From a virus, in the IMG/VR virus record IMGVR_UViG_3300010334_000348, positions 1-20,750 of that record: DNA of 20,750 nt. One strand, written 5' to 3'. The stretch's first letter is position 1; the number at the start of each line of letters is the position of its first letter. The notes under the pieces are model-generated. The model did not search any database. It had not been told where the DNA came from and worked only from the letters and a program-made list of their open reading frames with translations. Of the stretch, positions 10,624 through 18,705 are shown piece by piece. Made by a program: the position numbers and the translations under genes.

Positions 10624-11861
10624 TATCTTAAACCTGTTTTATCAGAAGGATTGTTGTAACCAGTTGACAATCTTGCTTTATCAACAACTTCAATTTCTTT
10701 AAATGAAAGTGTTAATGTTGTTTGTATTGGTGCACCATCACTATGTGCAGCCCAACCATTTGGTGCATAGTTAACATCAACATGTTCTAAAACACAATCT
10801 GCATATTTTGGAAGATATTTGTTTTCTATACCTTTAACCATAAAACTCACATTAAAAATTGCTGGCGGTATCAAGTACATACTTTGATTTGAAACTGTTT
10901 TACCAGATTGAAAACTTGGTGCAGAATAATATTTGAATTGATAGATGATATTATCAACTGTTTTTGCTTCTGCACGAGATTTGGGAGTAAAAGTAAATGA
11001 TAACTGAAAACTTCTAAATTCCAAACCTTGATATATCATTTGCATTTGTGGATTTGTTGCATATCCCTGTGCATTTAAGATTGCTGCGGACAAACCATCC
11101 GAACCTCCGACTGCACTAGTGCCCGCTCTTATTGCTGCATCGATTGCTGCTGGGTCACTACCAACTGCATTGATTACACTGCTATCACTTTTTATTGCAC
11201 CAGCTGCTGAACCGGCAACCGATGCAATTGTTTGTATACCTGTCAAAGTATCACCTAATGCACCACCAGGTCCTCTTAAATTAATTTGAGTGTAATCTGC
11301 ACTGTAACTTGCAGTTAAAGTGTCTGGCATATATAAAGATATAACTGCTTTTAGGTCTGTTGTTTGTTTTGTAAGCAAGACATTTGTAATTTGTTCTGTT
11401 TCTTTTTGTATCCAACTACCTGCTGAAGCTGCTCCACTTGCAACAGCATCCGCGGCACCTTGGCCAAATTGACTTAATGTATCAATAGGACGTTGTATAA
11501 GATTTGAAACACCCGTAACAACTCCATTAACAGCTGTTGTTGCTACAGGAACTGCATTGTTGACAACTGCATTTGCGCCATTAACTATTCCATTACCAAT
11601 GGCTTGAGCACCATTTGCTGCGATATTTGCTACACTTGGAGGAGTACCCGATACCGGAGTATATTTTTGGGGTATAATTTCTTTAATAGAAAATTGAACA
11701 TAATGACTTTTTGATGCATCTGTTGATAAATCTTGTGGATAATTAGCAGTAGTTAAATTTTTACCACCAAATAAAGCAGCCAAAGGACCACTAAGTATTT
11801 GACCTGTTTTACCGGGTATAGATACACCGCCAATCGATGTTGGTATAGAAATTATTGCCAT
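10623..11861 (-). CDS. 48: Baseplate tail-tube cap protein gp48
   Basis: This is the first gene of the leftward operon (412 aa; T4 gp48 is 364). Family features are an N-terminal 'NYPQDLSTDASKSHYVQFSI' segment, 'AVISLYMPDTLTASYSADYT' in the middle, and the C-terminal core LEFRSFQLSFTFTPKSRAEA, 'DNIIYQFKYYSAP', 'YLIPPAIFNVSFM', 'YAPNGWAAHSDGAPIQTTLTLSF' and a final GY. gp48 has the tail-tube fold and sits on the gp27 hub as the platform for tube polymerisation with gp54. Residues about 75-150 form an Ala/Gly/Val-rich low-complexity insert. The ATG has GGAA 7 bases upstream, and a late-promoter motif lies about 30 bases upstream. Confidence 0.9.
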   Translation of the reverse strand: MAIISIPTSIGGVSIPGKTGQILSGPLAALFGGKNLTTANYPQDLSTDASKSHYVQFSIKEIIPQKYTPVSGTPPSVANIAANGAQAIGNGIVNGANAVVNNAVPVATTAVNGVVTGVSNLIQRPIDTLSQFGQGAADAVASGAASAGSWIQKETEQITNVLLTKQTTDLKAVISLYMPDTLTASYSADYTQINLRGPGGALGDTLTGIQTIASVAGSAAGAIKSDSSVINAVGSDPAAIDAAIRAGTSAVGGSDGLSAAILNAQGYATNPQMQMIYQGLEFRSFQLSFTFTPKSRAEAKTVDNIIYQFKYYSAPSFQSGKTVSNQSMYLIPPAIFNVSFMVKGIENKYLPKYADCVLEHVDVNYAPNGWAAHSDGAPIQTTLTLSFKEIEVVDKARLSTGYNNPSDKTGLR

Positions 11862-11877
11862 TTTATTCCAGAAAAAA

Positions 11878-11885
11878 TATACATA
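11878..11885 (+). promoter_or_regulatory. Possible late promoter TATACATA for gp4
   Basis: TATACATA matches TATAAATA at 7 of 8 positions. It lies in the 32-base divergent gap, 8 bases before the gp4 ATG. If used, the mRNA leader would be only about 3 bases. The match is imperfect, so this is a weak call. Confidence 0.3.
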
Positions 11886-11888
11886 CTC

Positions 11889-11896
11889 TATTTATG
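11889..11896 (-). promoter_or_regulatory. Late promoter CATAAATA for the baseplate operon
   Basis: The minus strand reads CATAAATA then G, a fit to the T4-like late consensus NATAAATA. A start about 6 bases downstream would give a leader of roughly 22 bases before the gp48 ATG, containing its GGAA ribosome site. The motif overlaps the gp4 start codon on the other strand. It is the only good late motif upstream of the nine-gene leftward block. Confidence 0.6.
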
Positions 11897-12328
11897 GCCT
11901 ATTCAGGAAAGTTTACTCCTAAAAATCCACACAAGTATGTGGGTGACCACACGAATATTATTTATCGCTCATCTTGGGAGTGTAAAGTAATGTCCTATTT
12001 AGATAAGACCGAAGGAATCATTTCTTGGGCATCTGAAGAATTGATTATACCTTATGTATCTCCGGTTGACGGAAGATACCATAGATACTTTCCTGATTTT
12101 TTGGTGAAGGTTAGAACAAAAGATGACAAACTGAGAACCATACTAATTGAAGTCAAACCACAAAAACAAACAAAAGAACCAGAAAAAAAGAAAAAAGTAA
12201 CTAAACAATACATCAATGAGGTGGTTACTTGGGGTGTAAATCAAGCAAAATGGAAAGCTGCCCAAGAGTATTGTTTAGACCGTAACTGGGAATTTCAAAT
12301 TTGGACTGAAAAAGAGTTGGGATTGTAA
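11894..12328 (+). CDS. 4: Head completion protein gp4
   Basis: The start at ATG 11894 gives 144 residues beginning MAYSGKFTPKNPHKYVGD, matching T4 gp4 (150 aa, MAYSGKWVPKN...). An upstream in-frame ATG at 11855 would add 13 unconserved residues and overlap the gp48 start, so it is rejected. Other family blocks are 'YRSSWECKVMSYLD', 'WASEELIIPY', 'RYFPDFLVK', 'TILIEVKPQKQT' and 'EVVTWGVNQAKWKAAQEYC'. The PDF...xx(E)xKP arrangement is a PD-(D/E)xK nuclease-like signature, and T4 gp4 is needed to finish filled heads before tail joining. It is the first gene of the rightward operon, with no visible Shine-Dalgarno. Confidence 0.92.
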   Translation: MAYSGKFTPKNPHKYVGDHTNIIYRSSWECKVMSYLDKTEGIISWASEELIIPYVSPVDGRYHRYFPDFLVKVRTKDDKLRTILIEVKPQKQTKEPEKKKKVTKQYINEVVTWGVNQAKWKAAQEYCLDRNWEFQIWTEKELGL

Positions 12329-12981: not shown

Positions 12982-13680
12982 ATGCCAAGTATTACAAATT
13001 TCATATCATCTTTCAATAAAGATGTTGCACGACCAAAACATTTTGATGTTACTATACCTGCACCTGTTGCTTTGATTCCTTATTTGGCAACTGCTAGAAA
13101 TTTGTCATTACGTTGTGAATCTGCTCAACTGCCAAGTAGAACATTTGCTTTAGCTGAACAAAAGTTTGGTGCAAATCCAGTTGAAAAACACGCCACACAT
13201 TCAAATTACAATGAATCGGAAATGACATTTATTGTGTCTGGTGATATGAGTGAGAAGATTTTCTTTGATGCATGGATGGAATATATTAATCCAACAGTAT
13301 CATTTGATTTCAACTACAAAGAAGATTATATTTCTACCTTGACAGTAAATCAATATGGTATGTCAAATGACCTAACATACTCATTAAATCTAATTGATGC
13401 TTTTCCAATCTCTGTCAATCAATTAGATTTGGATTGGTCCAACGATGGACACCATAAACTAACAGTTGTTTTTGCATACAGATACTGGCAAAACAATTCT
13501 ATTCAACAACTTGGTTCAAGTCTACTGCAAGCAGGTATCTCCAATATTCTTGATACTTTTGGTGGACTTAACCCCGATCCACAACCAACTGATTCACCAG
13601 ATTTTACAACAAGTATATATGGAGGAAAACCAAATACTAATGTAAATGTACCTGACGTAAATCCTCAGGCTAAACATTAA
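12982..13680 (+). CDS. Tail-tube-fold protein (gp19/gp54-like)
   Basis: This 232-residue protein shows the tail-tube pattern: an early 'ARPKHFDVTIPAP' strand, 'LSLRCESAQLPSRTF' (compare T4 gp19 'FQCKATALPAGIV'), 'EMTFIVSGDMSEKIFFDAWMEYI', and near the end FPISVNQLDLDWSNDGHHKL plus 'VVFAYRYW', matching the gp19 'PTNVGELQLDWDSNN...ALDYWE' ending. A Pro/Asn/Asp-rich tail of about 50 residues follows the fold. In T4, gp19 (tube), gp48 (cap) and gp54 (tube initiator) share this fold. Because gp48 and the hub are neighbours and no sheath gene is nearby, gp54 is my preferred reading, with the major tube protein as the alternative. The ribosome site is weak (AAGAAG) in the end of the upstream gene. 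Confidence 0.85.
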   Translation: MPSITNFISSFNKDVARPKHFDVTIPAPVALIPYLATARNLSLRCESAQLPSRTFALAEQKFGANPVEKHATHSNYNESEMTFIVSGDMSEKIFFDAWMEYINPTVSFDFNYKEDYISTLTVNQYGMSNDLTYSLNLIDAFPISVNQLDLDWSNDGHHKLTVVFAYRYWQNNSIQQLGSSLLQAGISNILDTFGGLNPDPQPTDSPDFTTSIYGGKPNTNVNVPDVNPQAKH

Positions 13681-13699: not shown

Positions 13700-14425
13700 A
13701 TGGCTTTACCAAAAATTGACTCACCTGTCTATGAATTGACTTTACCACTTTCAAAAAAACATATTAGATTTCGTCCCTTTCTAGTAAAAGAACAACGCAA
13801 TCTGATGATGGCGATGGAATCAGATGACAAAGAAACTGTTGAAAAGAACATCAAACAAGTTTTACATAACTGTACCTTGACAGAAGGTATTGATATTGAA
13901 TCATTACCTATCATTGACATTGAATACTATTTCATTCAATTGAGAGCAAGATCAGTAGGTGAAATTGTAGAAAACAAATATCGTTGCGAGAACATTGTTA
14001 ATGAAAATCCTTGTGGTAATTTGATGGAAGTTAAATTTAATCTACTTGATATTAAAATTACAAAGAATGATAGTATCAAAGATGAGATTCAATTGACAGA
14101 TACAATTACAATCAAATTTAAATATCCCCAATTCTCAACATTGAATCATGTTAGAGAAGAAGAATCTGCAACAGATATTGCTTTTAGAATGATTGTTGAA
14201 TCTGTAGAACACATTTTTGATGGTGAACAATTTTACTATGCAAACGAATGTTCAACAGAAGAAATTATGGAATTTATTGAATCATTGAATCAAGAACAGT
14301 TCTCAAAGATCGAAGAGTTCTTTGAGAATCTTCCAACTTTAAATAAGAAAATTGAAGTTGATTGTAAAAAATGTAACTTTCACCATGTCATTGATGTGGA
14401 GGGCCTTGAAAATTTTTTCGGGTGA
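13700..14425 (+). CDS. 26: gp26/gp51-family baseplate hub protein, likely tail assembly chaperone
   Basis: The 241-residue protein resembles the T4-like baseplate hub family (gp26/gp51 type). Signs are 'LTLPLSKKHIRFRPFLVKEQRNLMMAMES', 'IDIEYYFIQLRARSVGEIV' and the acidic helical end 'EEIMEFIESLNQEQFSKIEEFFENLP'. Four cysteines, C96-x8-C105 and C222-x2-C225, could bind a metal; HH follows at 228-229. It begins 19 bases after the tube-fold gene with a good AAGGA site. It sits between a tube-fold gene and the long tail genes, the place of the lambda G/GT chaperones. Its last codons are GAA AAT TTT TTC GGG TGA, a canonical -1 slippery run. A slip there would replace the final Gly and give a 304-residue product ending in the downstream 63-codon frame. 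The gp26 label is family-level; gp51 is equally possible. Confidence 0.85.
   Translation: MALPKIDSPVYELTLPLSKKHIRFRPFLVKEQRNLMMAMESDDKETVEKNIKQVLHNCTLTEGIDIESLPIIDIEYYFIQLRARSVGEIVENKYRCENIVNENPCGNLMEVKFNLLDIKITKNDSIKDEIQLTDTITIKFKYPQFSTLNHVREEESATDIAFRMIVESVEHIFDGEQFYYANECSTEEIMEFIESLNQEQFSKIEEFFENLPTLNKKIEVDCKKCNFHHVIDVEGLENFFG
14398..14419 (+). promoter_or_regulatory. Putative programmed -1 frameshift site with upstream SD-like stimulator
   Basis: GGAGGG at 14398-14403 is followed by 9 bases and then T TTT TTC (14413-14419), an X XXY YYZ heptamer in the frame of the upstream gene. A second overlapping heptamer, A AAT TTT, begins at 14410. The -1 frame has a TGA at 14407-14409, so it is open only from the slip run onward. 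It then continues 66 codons into the 63-codon frame. The SD-like hexamer sits at the distance known to stimulate the E. coli dnaX frameshift. An AU-rich 8-bp hairpin (14435-14457, one G-U pair) lies downstream but is weak and rather far. The site is seen directly; its function is inferred. Confidence 0.7.
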
Positions 14426-14613
14426 CGCTGCGGCATGATAATCTAAAAAATTATTATACCACAAACTTTGCTTTGATGCAGCATCACAAATATAGTTTAA
14501 CTGAATTGGAGTCTATGTTACCTTGGGAAAGAGAGATTTATGTGTCTATGCTTTCCCAATATATTGAAGAAGAAAATGAAAAAATAAAACAAAGAAACGC
14601 AGAACGTAGATGA
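14422..14613 (+). CDS. 63-codon -1 frame: C-terminal extension of the gp26/51-family chaperone
   Basis: This small frame opens with GTG overlapping the TGA of the upstream gene (GTGA) and ends with an ATGA overlap at the next gene. The protein is helical and charged, with core LPWEREIYVSMLSQYIEEEN, which looks conserved-type rather than random. No ribosome site lies at a normal distance: the nearest, GGAGGG, ends 18 bases upstream of the GTG. This argues for expression by the -1 frameshift (product 240 + 64 residues), as with the T part of lambda GT, or else for termination-reinitiation at GTGA. Its length, position before the long tail genes and frame relation fit the tail-chaperone model. 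A separately translated small hub-assembly protein is the alternative. Confidence 0.75.
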   Translation: MTLRHDNLKNYYTTNFALMQHHKYSLTELESMLPWEREIYVSMLSQYIEEENEKIKQRNAERR

Positions 14614-16487
14614 CCGACAAAACCAACCCTACTCCAGAAGATGTTATTAATCCCAAATACACTCCTGGTCCCATTCCTCCTGGATTTACTGAAATAAATC
14701 TAGTTAGACCTGGCGTTGCAACGCAGGTTCGCTATGTTCATAGATCACAATTAGAATCTTGGTTGGAAAATGGTTGGAAAAAAGGCAAAGGTGACGGACC
14801 TGTTGCACCTCTAATTGAAAAAATAAAAGAAGAACAAAAACGTGTAAAAGAAACTAAAGTTCGTTCTACAAAACCTCAAAGTGAGGCTGCAGCATCAACA
14901 CCTGAACCTGAAAAACAACCTGAATCTGCACCAGAGCCTGAACAAAAACCCGATAGAGAAAAAACTGCTCAAAGAGGTGAAAAGATAAAGAAAAAGTTTG
15001 TACCAAAAACATTAAGTAATATGTTTGGGAGTGCAAGACCAAAAAATAATGTAAACACAGGTTTGTATTCAGCTATTGCTGCTCCCAATAATCCAAAATT
15101 ACGTTCAGGTGATGGTGCTGCAACTATTGCAACTAAAATTTATGCAGTAATGAAAAATGATTTGGACGTAAAAAAAGTAAGAACAGAAATAATCAAAAAC
15201 TTTGAAACCGAAAAGTATGAAGGCGAAAAACGTAGACATAATGAGATTATTGCTGAAATAGAAAAGATAAAAAAATCTAAACCAAAAATGCCAGTTCGGG
15301 ATTTAAAGACTGGTAGATTTAAAAAAGCAGAAGAGAAAGCACCATCTGCACCTGCACCCACAACTAAAGCTGCACCACCTAAAACTAAAGCACCAGAAGC
15401 CAAAGCTCCAGAAGCCAAAAAAGCACCAGAAGCCAAAAAAGCACCAGAACCTAAGAAAGCACCAGAAGCCAAAGCTCCAGAAGCCAAAAAAGCACCAGAA
15501 GCCAAAAAAGCACCAGAACCTAAGAAAGCACCAGAGGCTAAACCACCAGAGGCTAAACCACCAGAACCCAAGAAAGCACCTGAAGCTAAACCAAAAGAAA
15601 CTGCAAAAAAAGAAGAAGCTGCACCACCAACACCAACAGCACCGACGGCAACAAAACCGCCGCCTGCTGTACCAAAAGGTGCAGCCACAGCCGCAAAGGT
15701 AGCTATAGGTGGAGCAAAAGGTGCTGTTGCAGCTGCATTACTTGCCGCAGGTTTCTCAAAGGCTGCACAAGCTAACATCATGGCGAATGTAGATGAAGAA
15801 AGTAAATTTAAACCAAGAAGTGAAGAACTTGAAAAATATTCAGCTAAAACTTTGTTTAAGATGTATGGACCTCCCGGTGTTGATGGTGGTCAACCAGCAG
15901 GCGGAAAAAATAAAGTTAGATTCCAATCAATTTCTGAAGCTCAAAGCCTTGTTGCAAAAGGACCTGAAGCGGTTGGTGATGTAATCTATGGTGGTAGAAT
16001 GGGTAACTCTGAGCCAGGTGATGGATACAAATATAGGGGCCGTGGTTATATTCAATTGACAGGTAAAGATGCTTATAAAGCAATCGGAGATAAAATTGGT
16101 GTTGACTTACTCAAAAATCCAGATTTAGCTAATGATCCAGATGTAGCAGCAAAAATTGTTCCTGCTTTCTTTCAAATGAAATTGGGTAAAAATAAACCTT
16201 CAGAATTGGATGACATTGATAAAGTTAACAAAATTGTTGGTTCTGCAAGTGAAGAATCTAAAAATAAAAGAAAACAACTAGCATCACAATACATGAGTGA
16301 AGGTGATTCTGGTGGCGATCAGTTAAATAAATCATCTGTTGAAAATGCAGACCAAAAGAAAGCAATGCAGAAAGGTGGAACTACAATTGTTGATGCTTCG
16401 ACAACTGTTAATGGTGCACCTGCAAGTAAGCCACAGAAAATTGAAGTACCAACAGATTCAGATAAACCAGCACATACAAAAAAATAA
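14610..16487 (+). CDS. Virion-associated tail protein with GH19 lysozyme domain
   Basis: 625 residues. The N-terminus (about 15-60) is a compact 'GPIPPGFTEINLVRPG...VHRSQLESWLENGWKKG' segment. A charged, Pro/Lys-rich region follows. Residues about 230-360 are a Pro/Ala/Lys/Glu linker with APEAKKAPEPKK repeats. An Ala-rich helix at about 363-385 leads into a GH19 chitinase/lysozyme-like domain at about 377-565: 'NIMANVDEESKFKPRSEEL' with E396/E397 as candidate catalytic residues, and GYKYRGRGYIQLTG at 472-485, a hallmark of phage GH19 muralytic enzymes. The C-terminus is a low-complexity tail. The gene overlaps the 63-codon frame (ATGA). With lysozyme absent from gp5, this protein is the likely peptidoglycan-cutting part of the injection machine. 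Its length and place after the chaperone also allow a tape-measure or hub role. There is no signal peptide, which argues against a holin-dependent lysis enzyme alone. Confidence 0.88.
   Translation: MTDKTNPTPEDVINPKYTPGPIPPGFTEINLVRPGVATQVRYVHRSQLESWLENGWKKGKGDGPVAPLIEKIKEEQKRVKETKVRSTKPQSEAAASTPEPEKQPESAPEPEQKPDREKTAQRGEKIKKKFVPKTLSNMFGSARPKNNVNTGLYSAIAAPNNPKLRSGDGAATIATKIYAVMKNDLDVKKVRTEIIKNFETEKYEGEKRRHNEIIAEIEKIKKSKPKMPVRDLKTGRFKKAEEKAPSAPAPTTKAAPPKTKAPEAKAPEAKKAPEAKKAPEPKKAPEAKAPEAKKAPEAKKAPEPKKAPEAKPPEAKPPEPKKAPEAKPKETAKKEEAAPPTPTAPTATKPPPAVPKGAATAAKVAIGGAKGAVAAALLAAGFSKAAQANIMANVDEESKFKPRSEELEKYSAKTLFKMYGPPGVDGGQPAGGKNKVRFQSISEAQSLVAKGPEAVGDVIYGGRMGNSEPGDGYKYRGRGYIQLTGKDAYKAIGDKIGVDLLKNPDLANDPDVAAKIVPAFFQMKLGKNKPSELDDIDKVNKIVGSASEESKNKRKQLASQYMSEGDSGGDQLNKSSVENADQKKAMQKGGTTIVDASTTVNGAPASKPQKIEVPTDSDKPAHTKK
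15387..15535 (+). repeat. Perfect 69-bp tandem duplication in the Pro/Ala/Lys linker
   Basis: Positions 15387-15455 and 15456-15524 read as identical 69-base units (23 residues each); 11 further bases of a third copy match before divergence. Within each unit the shorter GCACCAGAAGCC-type element also repeats. The two perfect copies suggest a recent unequal crossover or slippage event. Being in frame, it lengthens the linker before the lysozyme domain. Confidence 0.9.
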
Positions 16488-16498
16488 GAGAATAAAAA

Positions 16499-18052
16499 AT
16501 GTCATATCAAAGATCACGAGCTATAAGACGTTCACCACTTGGTCGTTTAATAGTTAACCGAACTATATCGGGCCAAGGTTTTTTAGGTTCTGTTCGCTCT
16601 TCTATATCAGATAAAACTAAAGCTGGTCTGACAGGCATAGCAGAGAAGTTTGATCCTATGAATATAGGTAAAGCTGTTGGTGGTAGACTAGGTGCTTATG
16701 CTGTTGGTAAATTGACTGGACGATCTCAAGAAGATATGTCTTATTTTACTGGTGCACCATATAGTAGAGGTGATCAGAAATCTAAACCTGTTTCTGTACA
16801 AAAGAAGAACAATCCCTTATATACAAAAATTTCTGCATCAGATGCAAGACCATCCAAAAAAGGTGATGGTCTTGCTGATGTACTGTCTCGCATATTTAAT
16901 TTGATGAGAAAAGAATCTGATGAAAATGTGAAAAAACACGAATTAGAAAAAAACTTTGAAAGACAAAAAGAAGATGATCGTGAAGAAAGACATAAAGAGT
17001 TAATAAAAGCTTTATCTGGTTTATCTGGCGGAACTGCCACAAAGGTTGAACCTGAAGGTAGTAAAGGTGGAATATTTGATTTTATCAAAAAAATGTTTGA
17101 TTCTTTTTTGAATGATTTTAAAATCTTAAAAGATATTGTATTAAAGTATGGGCCAAATTTGATGAGGATTATAGGAACAGCAGCAGAGTTTGCCGCGGGG
17201 CCGTTAGCATTTCTTGCTGCTGTTGGTGCTATAGCATATTTGGCTAAGGCTATTCAAGAAAAACTGGAAGAAAGCACAGAAAAACAATTTGGTAAAGCTG
17301 GAGGAGAAAAAGCAGAAAAAGCATTAAAAGAAGTACATGAAGAGCGTAGAGGTACAGATGTTGAAAATGCATCACCCGAACAAGCAGAATCTGTACAAAA
17401 ACAATTGAAAAGTGAAATTAAAGCAACTGATGAAATTAAAAAGAAACAAGATTTGATTCAATCTTATATGCAAGAAAAAGGCTACAAAAAGTATGCCAAA
17501 ACTGCTTTGGGTTTAACTTATGGTTATGAATATGATGATAAGAATGGCAAACAAGCGCCAGAGTCATTGTTAAAAGAAGCTGATGATTATGCAGAAAAAG
17601 AAATGAAAAAACAAGAAGTAACTGCACCTAAAGCTGGTGCGACCGCTTCTAGCGTTCCATCACCGTCATCTACGCCCGCATCAGCAGCACCTTCAGCATC
17701 ACCAGTTTCATCAGAACCTTCTTCAACATCACCTTCTACATCAACACCATCGGGAACATCTTCAGCAACACCTTCAGCTACATCATCGCCAGCAGGAGCA
17801 CCTTCAGCAACACCAATGCCAGCTGCACCAAGTGTTACTGGACAAAATGTACAAGCAGCCATTTCAGAAAATAAAAATTTAGAAATGGATCAAAATGCAA
17901 GTCAAGGCCAAACGGTCGTGATTGACAAATCTAAAAATGTTGGTGGCGGAGGCGAACCAGGACCTGCCGTGACGATTGATAGCTCTGCACCTGTACGAAT
18001 TGATGATCCAACATTGAAATACATCCAGGAAAGAAACCTGAGAAAGTTTTAA
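16499..18052 (+). CDS. Probable tail tape-measure or hub structural protein
   Basis: 517 residues, starting 11 bases after the lysozyme gene. The N-terminus is basic (SYQRSRAIRRSPLGR...). A strongly charged helical stretch covers about 130-170. A long hydrophobic Ala/Gly-rich segment lies at about 217-252 (IIGTAAEFAAGPLAFLAAVG), typical of tape-measure proteins that insert in the host membrane. Lys/Glu-rich helices follow (255-360), then a Ser/Thr/Pro/Ala low-complexity linker (about 378-450). The end has a Gly-rich turn and 'PVRIDDPTLKYIQERNLRKF'. I do not recognise a T4 orthologue by sequence. The order tube-fold protein, chaperone, long tail proteins and the membrane-like segment favour tape-measure or hub (functional gp29 or gp28 analogue). 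It is the last gene of the rightward tail operon. Confidence 0.8.
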   Translation: MSYQRSRAIRRSPLGRLIVNRTISGQGFLGSVRSSISDKTKAGLTGIAEKFDPMNIGKAVGGRLGAYAVGKLTGRSQEDMSYFTGAPYSRGDQKSKPVSVQKKNNPLYTKISASDARPSKKGDGLADVLSRIFNLMRKESDENVKKHELEKNFERQKEDDREERHKELIKALSGLSGGTATKVEPEGSKGGIFDFIKKMFDSFLNDFKILKDIVLKYGPNLMRIIGTAAEFAAGPLAFLAAVGAIAYLAKAIQEKLEESTEKQFGKAGGEKAEKALKEVHEERRGTDVENASPEQAESVQKQLKSEIKATDEIKKKQDLIQSYMQEKGYKKYAKTALGLTYGYEYDDKNGKQAPESLLKEADDYAEKEMKKQEVTAPKAGATASSVPSPSSTPASAAPSASPVSSEPSSTSPSTSTPSGTSSATPSATSSPAGAPSATPMPAAPSVTGQNVQAAISENKNLEMDQNASQGQTVVIDKSKNVGGGGEPGPAVTIDSSAPVRIDDPTLKYIQERNLRKF

Positions 18053-18150: not shown

Positions 18151-18705
18151 ATGAATATTTATAAACCATACACATATCTTATTGGATGGACAAATCATAA
18201 TAAATGGTATTATGGTGTTCGTTATTCAAAAAAATGTAATCCTTCTGATCTTTGGATAAAATATTTCACAAGTTCTAAAAAAGTAAAAGAATTTCGTGAA
18301 TTGCATGGTGAACCAGATATAATTCAAATCAGAAAAACTTTCTTAGATGATAAATCAGCCAAATTATGGGAAGATAAAGTATTGCGAAGAATGAAGGTTC
18401 ACATTGATGAAAAATTTATAAATGTACGAAAAGATACCTTTAAAGGAGTTATAGTCACCGAAGAAATGAGAAAAAAGAATGGTGATGCACATCGTGGCCA
18501 AATTCCTTGGAATAAAGGAATAAAAAGACCAGATATTTCAGAAAAAATGAAAAATATGAGAAGAAATAGAGAGGATTGGGGCACGACCAAAGGTCAAACT
18601 AACGAATATAGAAAAGAAAACGGCCTACCTCTAATAAAAGGTAGGCCGAAAGGTTCTAAAGATTTAAAGAAAAGAAAAACTTACACCAAATCAATCATCA
18701 GCTAA
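18151..18705 (+). CDS. GIY-YIG-type homing endonuclease with NUMOD3-like region
   Basis: 184 residues, very basic. The N-terminal domain has 'TYLIGW' (8-13) and 'WYYGVRY' (19-25), the variant GIY...YIG pair seen in phage free-standing homing enzymes. E74 in 'LWEDKVLRR' is a candidate catalytic Glu and 'INVR' (90-93) follows. Residues about 110-135 resemble a NUMOD3 DNA-binding repeat (GDAHRGQIPWNKGI). Residues 163-170 (KGRPKGSK) look like an AT-hook. Such genes insert between conserved phage genes and spread by cutting phages that lack them. It is the only plus-strand gene downstream of the tail operon, has its own promoter and ribosome site, and its last 15 bases overlap the end of gp32 tail to tail, which suggests insertion beside gp32. 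The catalytic Arg and full fold are not verified. Confidence 0.8.
   Translation: MNIYKPYTYLIGWTNHNKWYYGVRYSKKCNPSDLWIKYFTSSKKVKEFRELHGEPDIIQIRKTFLDDKSAKLWEDKVLRRMKVHIDEKFINVRKDTFKGVIVTEEMRKKNGDAHRGQIPWNKGIKRPDISEKMKNMRRNREDWGTTKGQTNEYRKENGLPLIKGRPKGSKDLKKRKTYTKSIIS
18611..18648 (-). terminator. Rho-independent terminator of the gp32 transcript, inside the endonuclease gene
   Basis: CGGCCTACC (18621-18629) and GGTAGGCCG (18640-18648) form a perfect 9-bp stem, 10 with the T-A pair at the loop. Read leftward it is followed by TTTTCTTTTC. It begins 43 bases after the gp32 stop. On the plus strand the same bases encode residues 157-166 of the endonuclease, including part of its KGRPKGSK motif. 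Confidence 0.8.

Follow-up and report, generated by a model that had tools for sequence, protein, structure and literature searches.

The locus considered here raises the question of whether a T4-like myovirus makes its tail assembly chaperone in two forms, the longer of them by −1 ribosomal frameshifting near the end of the gene. The window, by which we mean the whole stretch of DNA analysed, is a viral contig of 20,750 bases carrying a T4-like tail module. In it, the gene for the tail tube protein (12,982–13,680, 232 residues; PHROG 45 'tail tube', E = 9e-36, with a weak match to PF06841) is directly followed by that for the short chaperone, TAC-N, which is of the gp26 type (13,700–14,425, 241 residues). 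The frame-0 codons at the slip junction read AAT TTT TTC GGG TGA, which places the heptamer T TTT TTC (14,413–14,419) in the X XXY YYZ phase, with the frame-0 stop TGA (14,423–14,425) one codon past it. The −1 frame is open from a TGA at 14,407–14,409, three bases before the heptamer, through the TGA at 14,611–14,613, and after the slip site it encodes 64 residues (RVTLRHDNL...NAERR) plus the stop, designated TAC-C (14,419–14,613). Slippage would give a long form, TAC-NC, of 240 + 64 = 304 residues (13,700–14,613). The window has a single + strand copy of the SD-like hexamer GGAGGG, at 14,398–14,403, 9 nt before the slip site. All these features, and the two genes downstream of them, are on the + strand. 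The in-frame heptamer, the −1 frame closed before it and open after it, and the product sizes of 241 and 304 residues are all as the original prediction gave them.

The gene that follows (14,610–16,487, 625 residues) overlaps the TAC-C stop and has a chitinase/lysozyme-like domain (PF00182, E = 3.5e-9; PHROG 181), and is a candidate for the tape-measure/hub module. The next large ORF (16,499–18,052, 517 residues) is a second tape-measure candidate, put forward from its sequence only; no convincing family match to it was found in Pfam or PHROG. The chaperone gene therefore lies directly after the tube gene and ahead of a large ORF that is a tape-measure candidate only; in HTVC008M, 'putative tail tape measure' is the annotation of the second gene after TAC-C. 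We note also a long EAKAPEAKKAPEPKKAPEA-type repeat in the 625-residue protein, encoded at 15,350–15,700 and ahead of the chitinase/lysozyme-like domain; a 184-residue ORF adjoining the tail genes (18,151–18,705, starting YKPYTYLIGWTNHNKWYYGVRYS), which by eye is like a GIY-YIG homing endonuclease; and a 157-residue ORF (11,855–12,328), which by eye resembles a T4 gp4-type head completion protein. In several relatives, a gene annotated as a gp4-type head completion protein lies near the chaperone gene.

TAC-N matches the Pfam family PF12322 (T4_baseplate) with E = 8.5e-60 and 202.6 bits (cut-off 24.5), and matches positions 5–232 of the 282 in PHROG 150 with E = 9.7e-64. TAC-C gives a match to PHROG 634 (gp51, 'baseplate hub assembly catalyst'; E = 4.2e-29) and also covers positions 235–278 of PHROG 150. 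A tblastn search with TAC-C matched 594 GenBank phage records at E ≤ 0.1, most of the top matches starting at the first residue past the slip. Across 39 diverse relatives, the C-domain has 14 invariant residues and a mean column identity of 71%, compared to 50% for the N-domain, and its predicted structure is a three-helix domain. Judged by these sequence comparisons, the −1 frame encodes a real, conserved protein domain, as its non-random core had suggested. Pfam matches of TAC-C to Stealth_CR2 and SWT1 were under the cut-off and were judged to be due to chance. The short form also contains cysteine pairs recalling a zinc ribbon (encoded at 13,985–14,390, with C96 invariant and CKKC near residue 223), and has a weak, sub-cut-off Pfam match to Hsp33 (E = 7e-4).

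In T4, gene 26 (208 residues) and gene 51 (249 residues) lie on opposite strands, and their products are listed as hub assembly chaperones (PMC3004832). When a profile of the long forms was compared with them, the alignment with T4 gp26 ended at the slip point, whereas that with T4 gp51 ran on beyond it into the C-domain, the E-values referring to a database of six sequences. The coverage of PHROG 150 follows the same pattern, at positions 13–280 for gp51, 14–235 for gp26, 5–232 for frame 0 of the window and 235–278 for its −1 frame, and PHROG 634 is matched by both the window C-domain and T4 gp51. The two T4 proteins thus belong to one family, in which gp26 corresponds to the short form and gp51 to the long form, except that T4 supplies the two from separate genes, without a frameshift. 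In the KVP40 record, a small protein is noted as resembling the T4 gp51 C-terminus.

The loci for analysing the conservation of the junction came from isolates and from two unbiased scans of viral contigs, in which the gp26 part and the C part respectively served as the query. In a first set of 165 sequences (contigs, the window and three isolates, with near-duplicates counted), a −1 C frame and the heptamer were found in every one. The extended set contains 142 distinct junctions, forming 36 clusters at 60% protein identity, with Kyanoviridae, Straboviridae, Pootjesviridae and Chakrabartyvirus among the isolates. Ackermannviridae, Vibrio phage K355 and T4-type phages were set aside because their arrangement differs. 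In each of the 142 junctions the C frame is −1 and T TTT TTN lies in phase with frame 0; all contigs from both scans were kept, but isolates were added after the first set only if the heptamer was present. The heptamer is TTTTTTC in 126, TTTTTTT in 10, TTTTTTA in five and TTTTTTG in one. The codon ahead of TTT is AAT, AGT, GAT, TCT, GCT or GGT, encoding N, S, D, A or G, and its last base is always T. Every junction uses TTT for the first Phe, compared to roughly 65–70% elsewhere in these genes. With codon usage drawn from the same genes, the probability that the T and the TTT would both be invariant among the 36 representatives is near 10^-16.6, a rough figure in that even clusters at 60% identity are related. 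The frame-0 stop is one codon past the slip site, as in the window, in 129 of the 142, and the upstream stop closing the −1 frame lies a median of 18 nt before it. As a control, the fetched loci were searched for a T TTT TTN near the 3′ end of an ORF with 40 or more open codons of −1 frame after it; among 669 distinct ORFs of 150 codons or more, this combination occurred 121 times, every time in the chaperone gene. The slip signal is therefore beyond chance. The overlapping A AAT TTT, also present in the window, is ruled out as a general slip site because the preceding codon varies across the junctions (AGT, GAT, TCT and others).

The conservation expected of the junction across T4-like phages thus holds, in this set, for the heptamer and the −1 frame, but not for GGAGGG, which is present in only 61 of the 142 junctions; by the test used, 26 have no SD-like element at all. 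SD-like pairing upstream of the slip site is nonetheless stronger than in synonymous shuffles, at −7.4 versus −5.1 kcal/mol on average. In the window it is very strong, being matched by about 1% of synonymous shuffles, while the median representative is unremarkable. The dnaX-like stimulator that had been proposed is consequently plausible in the window, and on the sequences compared would be a lineage-specific element rather than a general feature. A conserved downstream RNA structure was not supported over the 142 junctions (mean z of −0.57; about −1.4 to −2.1 in the window).

Most GenBank records give the −1 frame as its own CDS, and it could accordingly be a separate small gene (gp51) with its own start, translated through coupling to gp26 or by re-initiation at the stop of that gene. 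An ATG in the −1 frame is indeed found near that stop in 40 of the 142 junctions, sometimes overlapping it (KVP40, S-CRM01). Yet 69 junctions, and 16 of the 36 representatives, have no ATG, GTG or TTG before the conserved core, and in these the −1 frame cannot be a separate gene. In several records, among them Mosig, Melnitz and HTVC008M, the 'gp51' gene is annotated as starting within the core. Such starts stand at L163 3058, L178 3055 and L179 3753, and if the frameshift reading is right, the proteins deposited from them are truncated artefacts. The window itself has a GTG at 14,422, with no SD at normal spacing, in agreement with the prediction that the −1 frame has no ribosome site at that spacing; and among the homologues having the gene pair, none has a C frame well apart from gp26. 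Re-initiation does not explain conservation of the slip site at silent positions, and in T4 gp51 the domain is fused to the N-domain. Since a start before the core is lacking in about half of the junctions, we reject a separate gene as the main explanation and consider it very unlikely, while noting that coupled re-initiation could add a free C-domain where an ATG adjoins the stop, as in KVP40 and S-CRM01.

The run of U could instead have been kept only because the short form needs two phenylalanines, the −1 frame being a remnant, now decaying, of an earlier fusion. The FF pair hardly varies among the short forms, and T4 gp26 has it too, close to its end (...GLKEFFELL). This need would not account for the T that precedes TTT in every junction despite the varying amino acid, nor for the use of TTT alone as the first Phe codon; in six junctions TTA or TTG (Leu) replaces TTC, with the slip still possible, and a domain better conserved than the N-domain, with its 14 invariant residues, does not look like a remnant. 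We regard this explanation as highly improbable. Runs of U can also cause RNA polymerase to slip, and transcriptional slippage on the T run would join the two frames into nearly the same protein. Six T's are short for polymerase slippage, however, and the run is fixed at that length in most members, since in 126 of the 142 the base after it is C; the constant X XXY YYZ phase relative to frame 0 fits ribosomal slippage better, and the SD-like enrichment also favours it. A transcriptional origin of the long form is thus scarcely to be expected.

We therefore propose, with a probability of about 0.93, that the locus encodes a T4-like myovirus tail assembly chaperone in two forms by −1 frameshifting. 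This reading, essentially the lambda-type slippage originally predicted, is supported by the conservation and phase of the slip site, the missing start codons, the colinearity with T4 gp51, the gene order and the predicted fold. We infer the frameshift, its efficiency and the chaperone role as follows. Most ribosomes would stay in frame 0 and stop at 14,425, giving the short form. A minority, holding TTT and TTC in the P and A sites respectively, would shift back by one base at T TTT TTC, bypass the stop and produce TAC-NC, carrying the helical C-domain of the gp51 type. By analogy with lambda gpG and gpGT, the N-domain common to both forms would serve as a coat for the tape measure protein, and recruiting the tube protein would fall to the C-domain.

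The slip site of lambda G/GT is G GGA AAG, and that of the window, T TTT TTC, therefore differs from it. The arrangement is like that of gpG and gpGT: the gene follows the tube gene, and a short form would be accompanied by a long form made by a −1 shift near the 3′ end, with the C-domain in the −1 frame. The model of the N-domain also resembles gp13 of HK97, a lambda-like phage chaperone. Lambda G/GT is the model for assigning the N-domain to the tape measure and the C-domain to the tube (PMC5009743). A further parallel is Pseudomonas phage Adele (Vandenendeviridae), for which a −1 frameshift at a conserved U-rich site in TAC-N was proposed and the C frame is often annotated as a separate gene; there the invariant motif is GTTTTT and the phage family is another one (PMC12846349).

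The structure of the short form was predicted using AlphaFold2, with a pLDDT of 87. Using VIA-align, residues 1–95 of the model matched 3FGX, 3KLU and HK97 gp13 (2OB9) with Z of 7.7, 7.5 and 7.2, values under 8 which, as the tool warns, can mean a common arrangement; the next chains had Z of 4.5 and 3.0. All three top matches are phage tail assembly chaperones (PMC9603447). The likeness of the predicted N-domain to such chaperones is suggestive only. A Foldseek search of the N-domain model against the PDB gave nothing with E under 0.001, HK97 gp13 standing out only on realignment. A search of the C-domain against viral models gave no significant match, which says little for a helical piece of 64 residues, and a sequence search of the PDB with the N and C profiles yielded nothing useful.

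Loss of the slip run with both proteins retained would have counted against the proposal. Among the phages compared it occurs only in Ackermannviridae and Vibrio phage K355, where the C frame remains in −1 and the run is reduced to NTT TTC. In Ackermannviridae, a homologous C-domain, often unannotated, follows gp26 in the −1 frame, and the site reads ATT TTC or GTT TTC in the six examined (end of the gp26 gene in L172, L177, L181, L182, L184 and L185), so that only one tRNA could re-pair well. This C-domain matches 280 phage records, nearly all of the Ackermannviridae type by organism. Vibrio phage K355 has a related −1 TAC-C, with CTT TTC at the site (L173 3600–3900). The chances seem to us evenly balanced that a frameshifted chaperone was ancestral to the T4-like phages and Ackermannviridae, and that Ackermannviridae and the Vibrio relative now shift at a reduced, non-canonical site. 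If so, there would be a natural series from the full heptamer, through slippage by a single tRNA, to the separate genes of T4.

We also observed a slip site and an open −1 C-domain in Cronobacter phage LPCS28 (L174 3720–3890) and Acinetobacter phage nACB2 (L180 3711–3890), where the annotation shows no gene, and a related TAC-C in the −1 frame with the canonical T TTT TTC in Vibrio phage Bakedbeans (L183 about 960–1160).

The abstract of a 2022 study by Vladimirov and colleagues reportedly states that frameshifting appears to be conserved in several groups of T4-like phages, and names 26 and 51 as the genes used by T4. A review in 2016 had described G-T frameshifting as conserved in long-tailed phages except T4 (PMC5009743). 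According to papers that cite it, the study of Vladimirov, Gautam and Davidson (Virology 2022, 566:9–15) identified the T4-like TAC genes (PMC10885494, PMC12846349). The PRFect paper cites it for some T4-like phages having a short gene and a fused long gene rather than frameshifting (PMC10885494), and the phage Adele paper credits it with poly-T slippery sequences in T4-like TAC-N genes (PMC12846349). On these citing accounts, frameshifting in the T4-like gp26/51 family was already published in 2022, though the original prediction was not aware of a description, and the window contig would be a further member of the group, with no difference in kind seen from the TAC-N/TAC-NC described there. 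The observation of a T4-like chaperone gene with a frameshift signal is correct, but not new in kind.

Hundreds of marine T4-like genomes have a small gene annotated as 'gp51 baseplate hub assembly catalyst'. Most likely this is the frameshifted end of the chaperone and not a separate gene. The result also fits the reading of T4 genes 26 and 51 as encoding the short and long chaperones; the two have long been listed as hub components of unclear role. The practical gain is a corrected annotation, together with natural variants on which to test how the ratio of short to long forms controls tail assembly.
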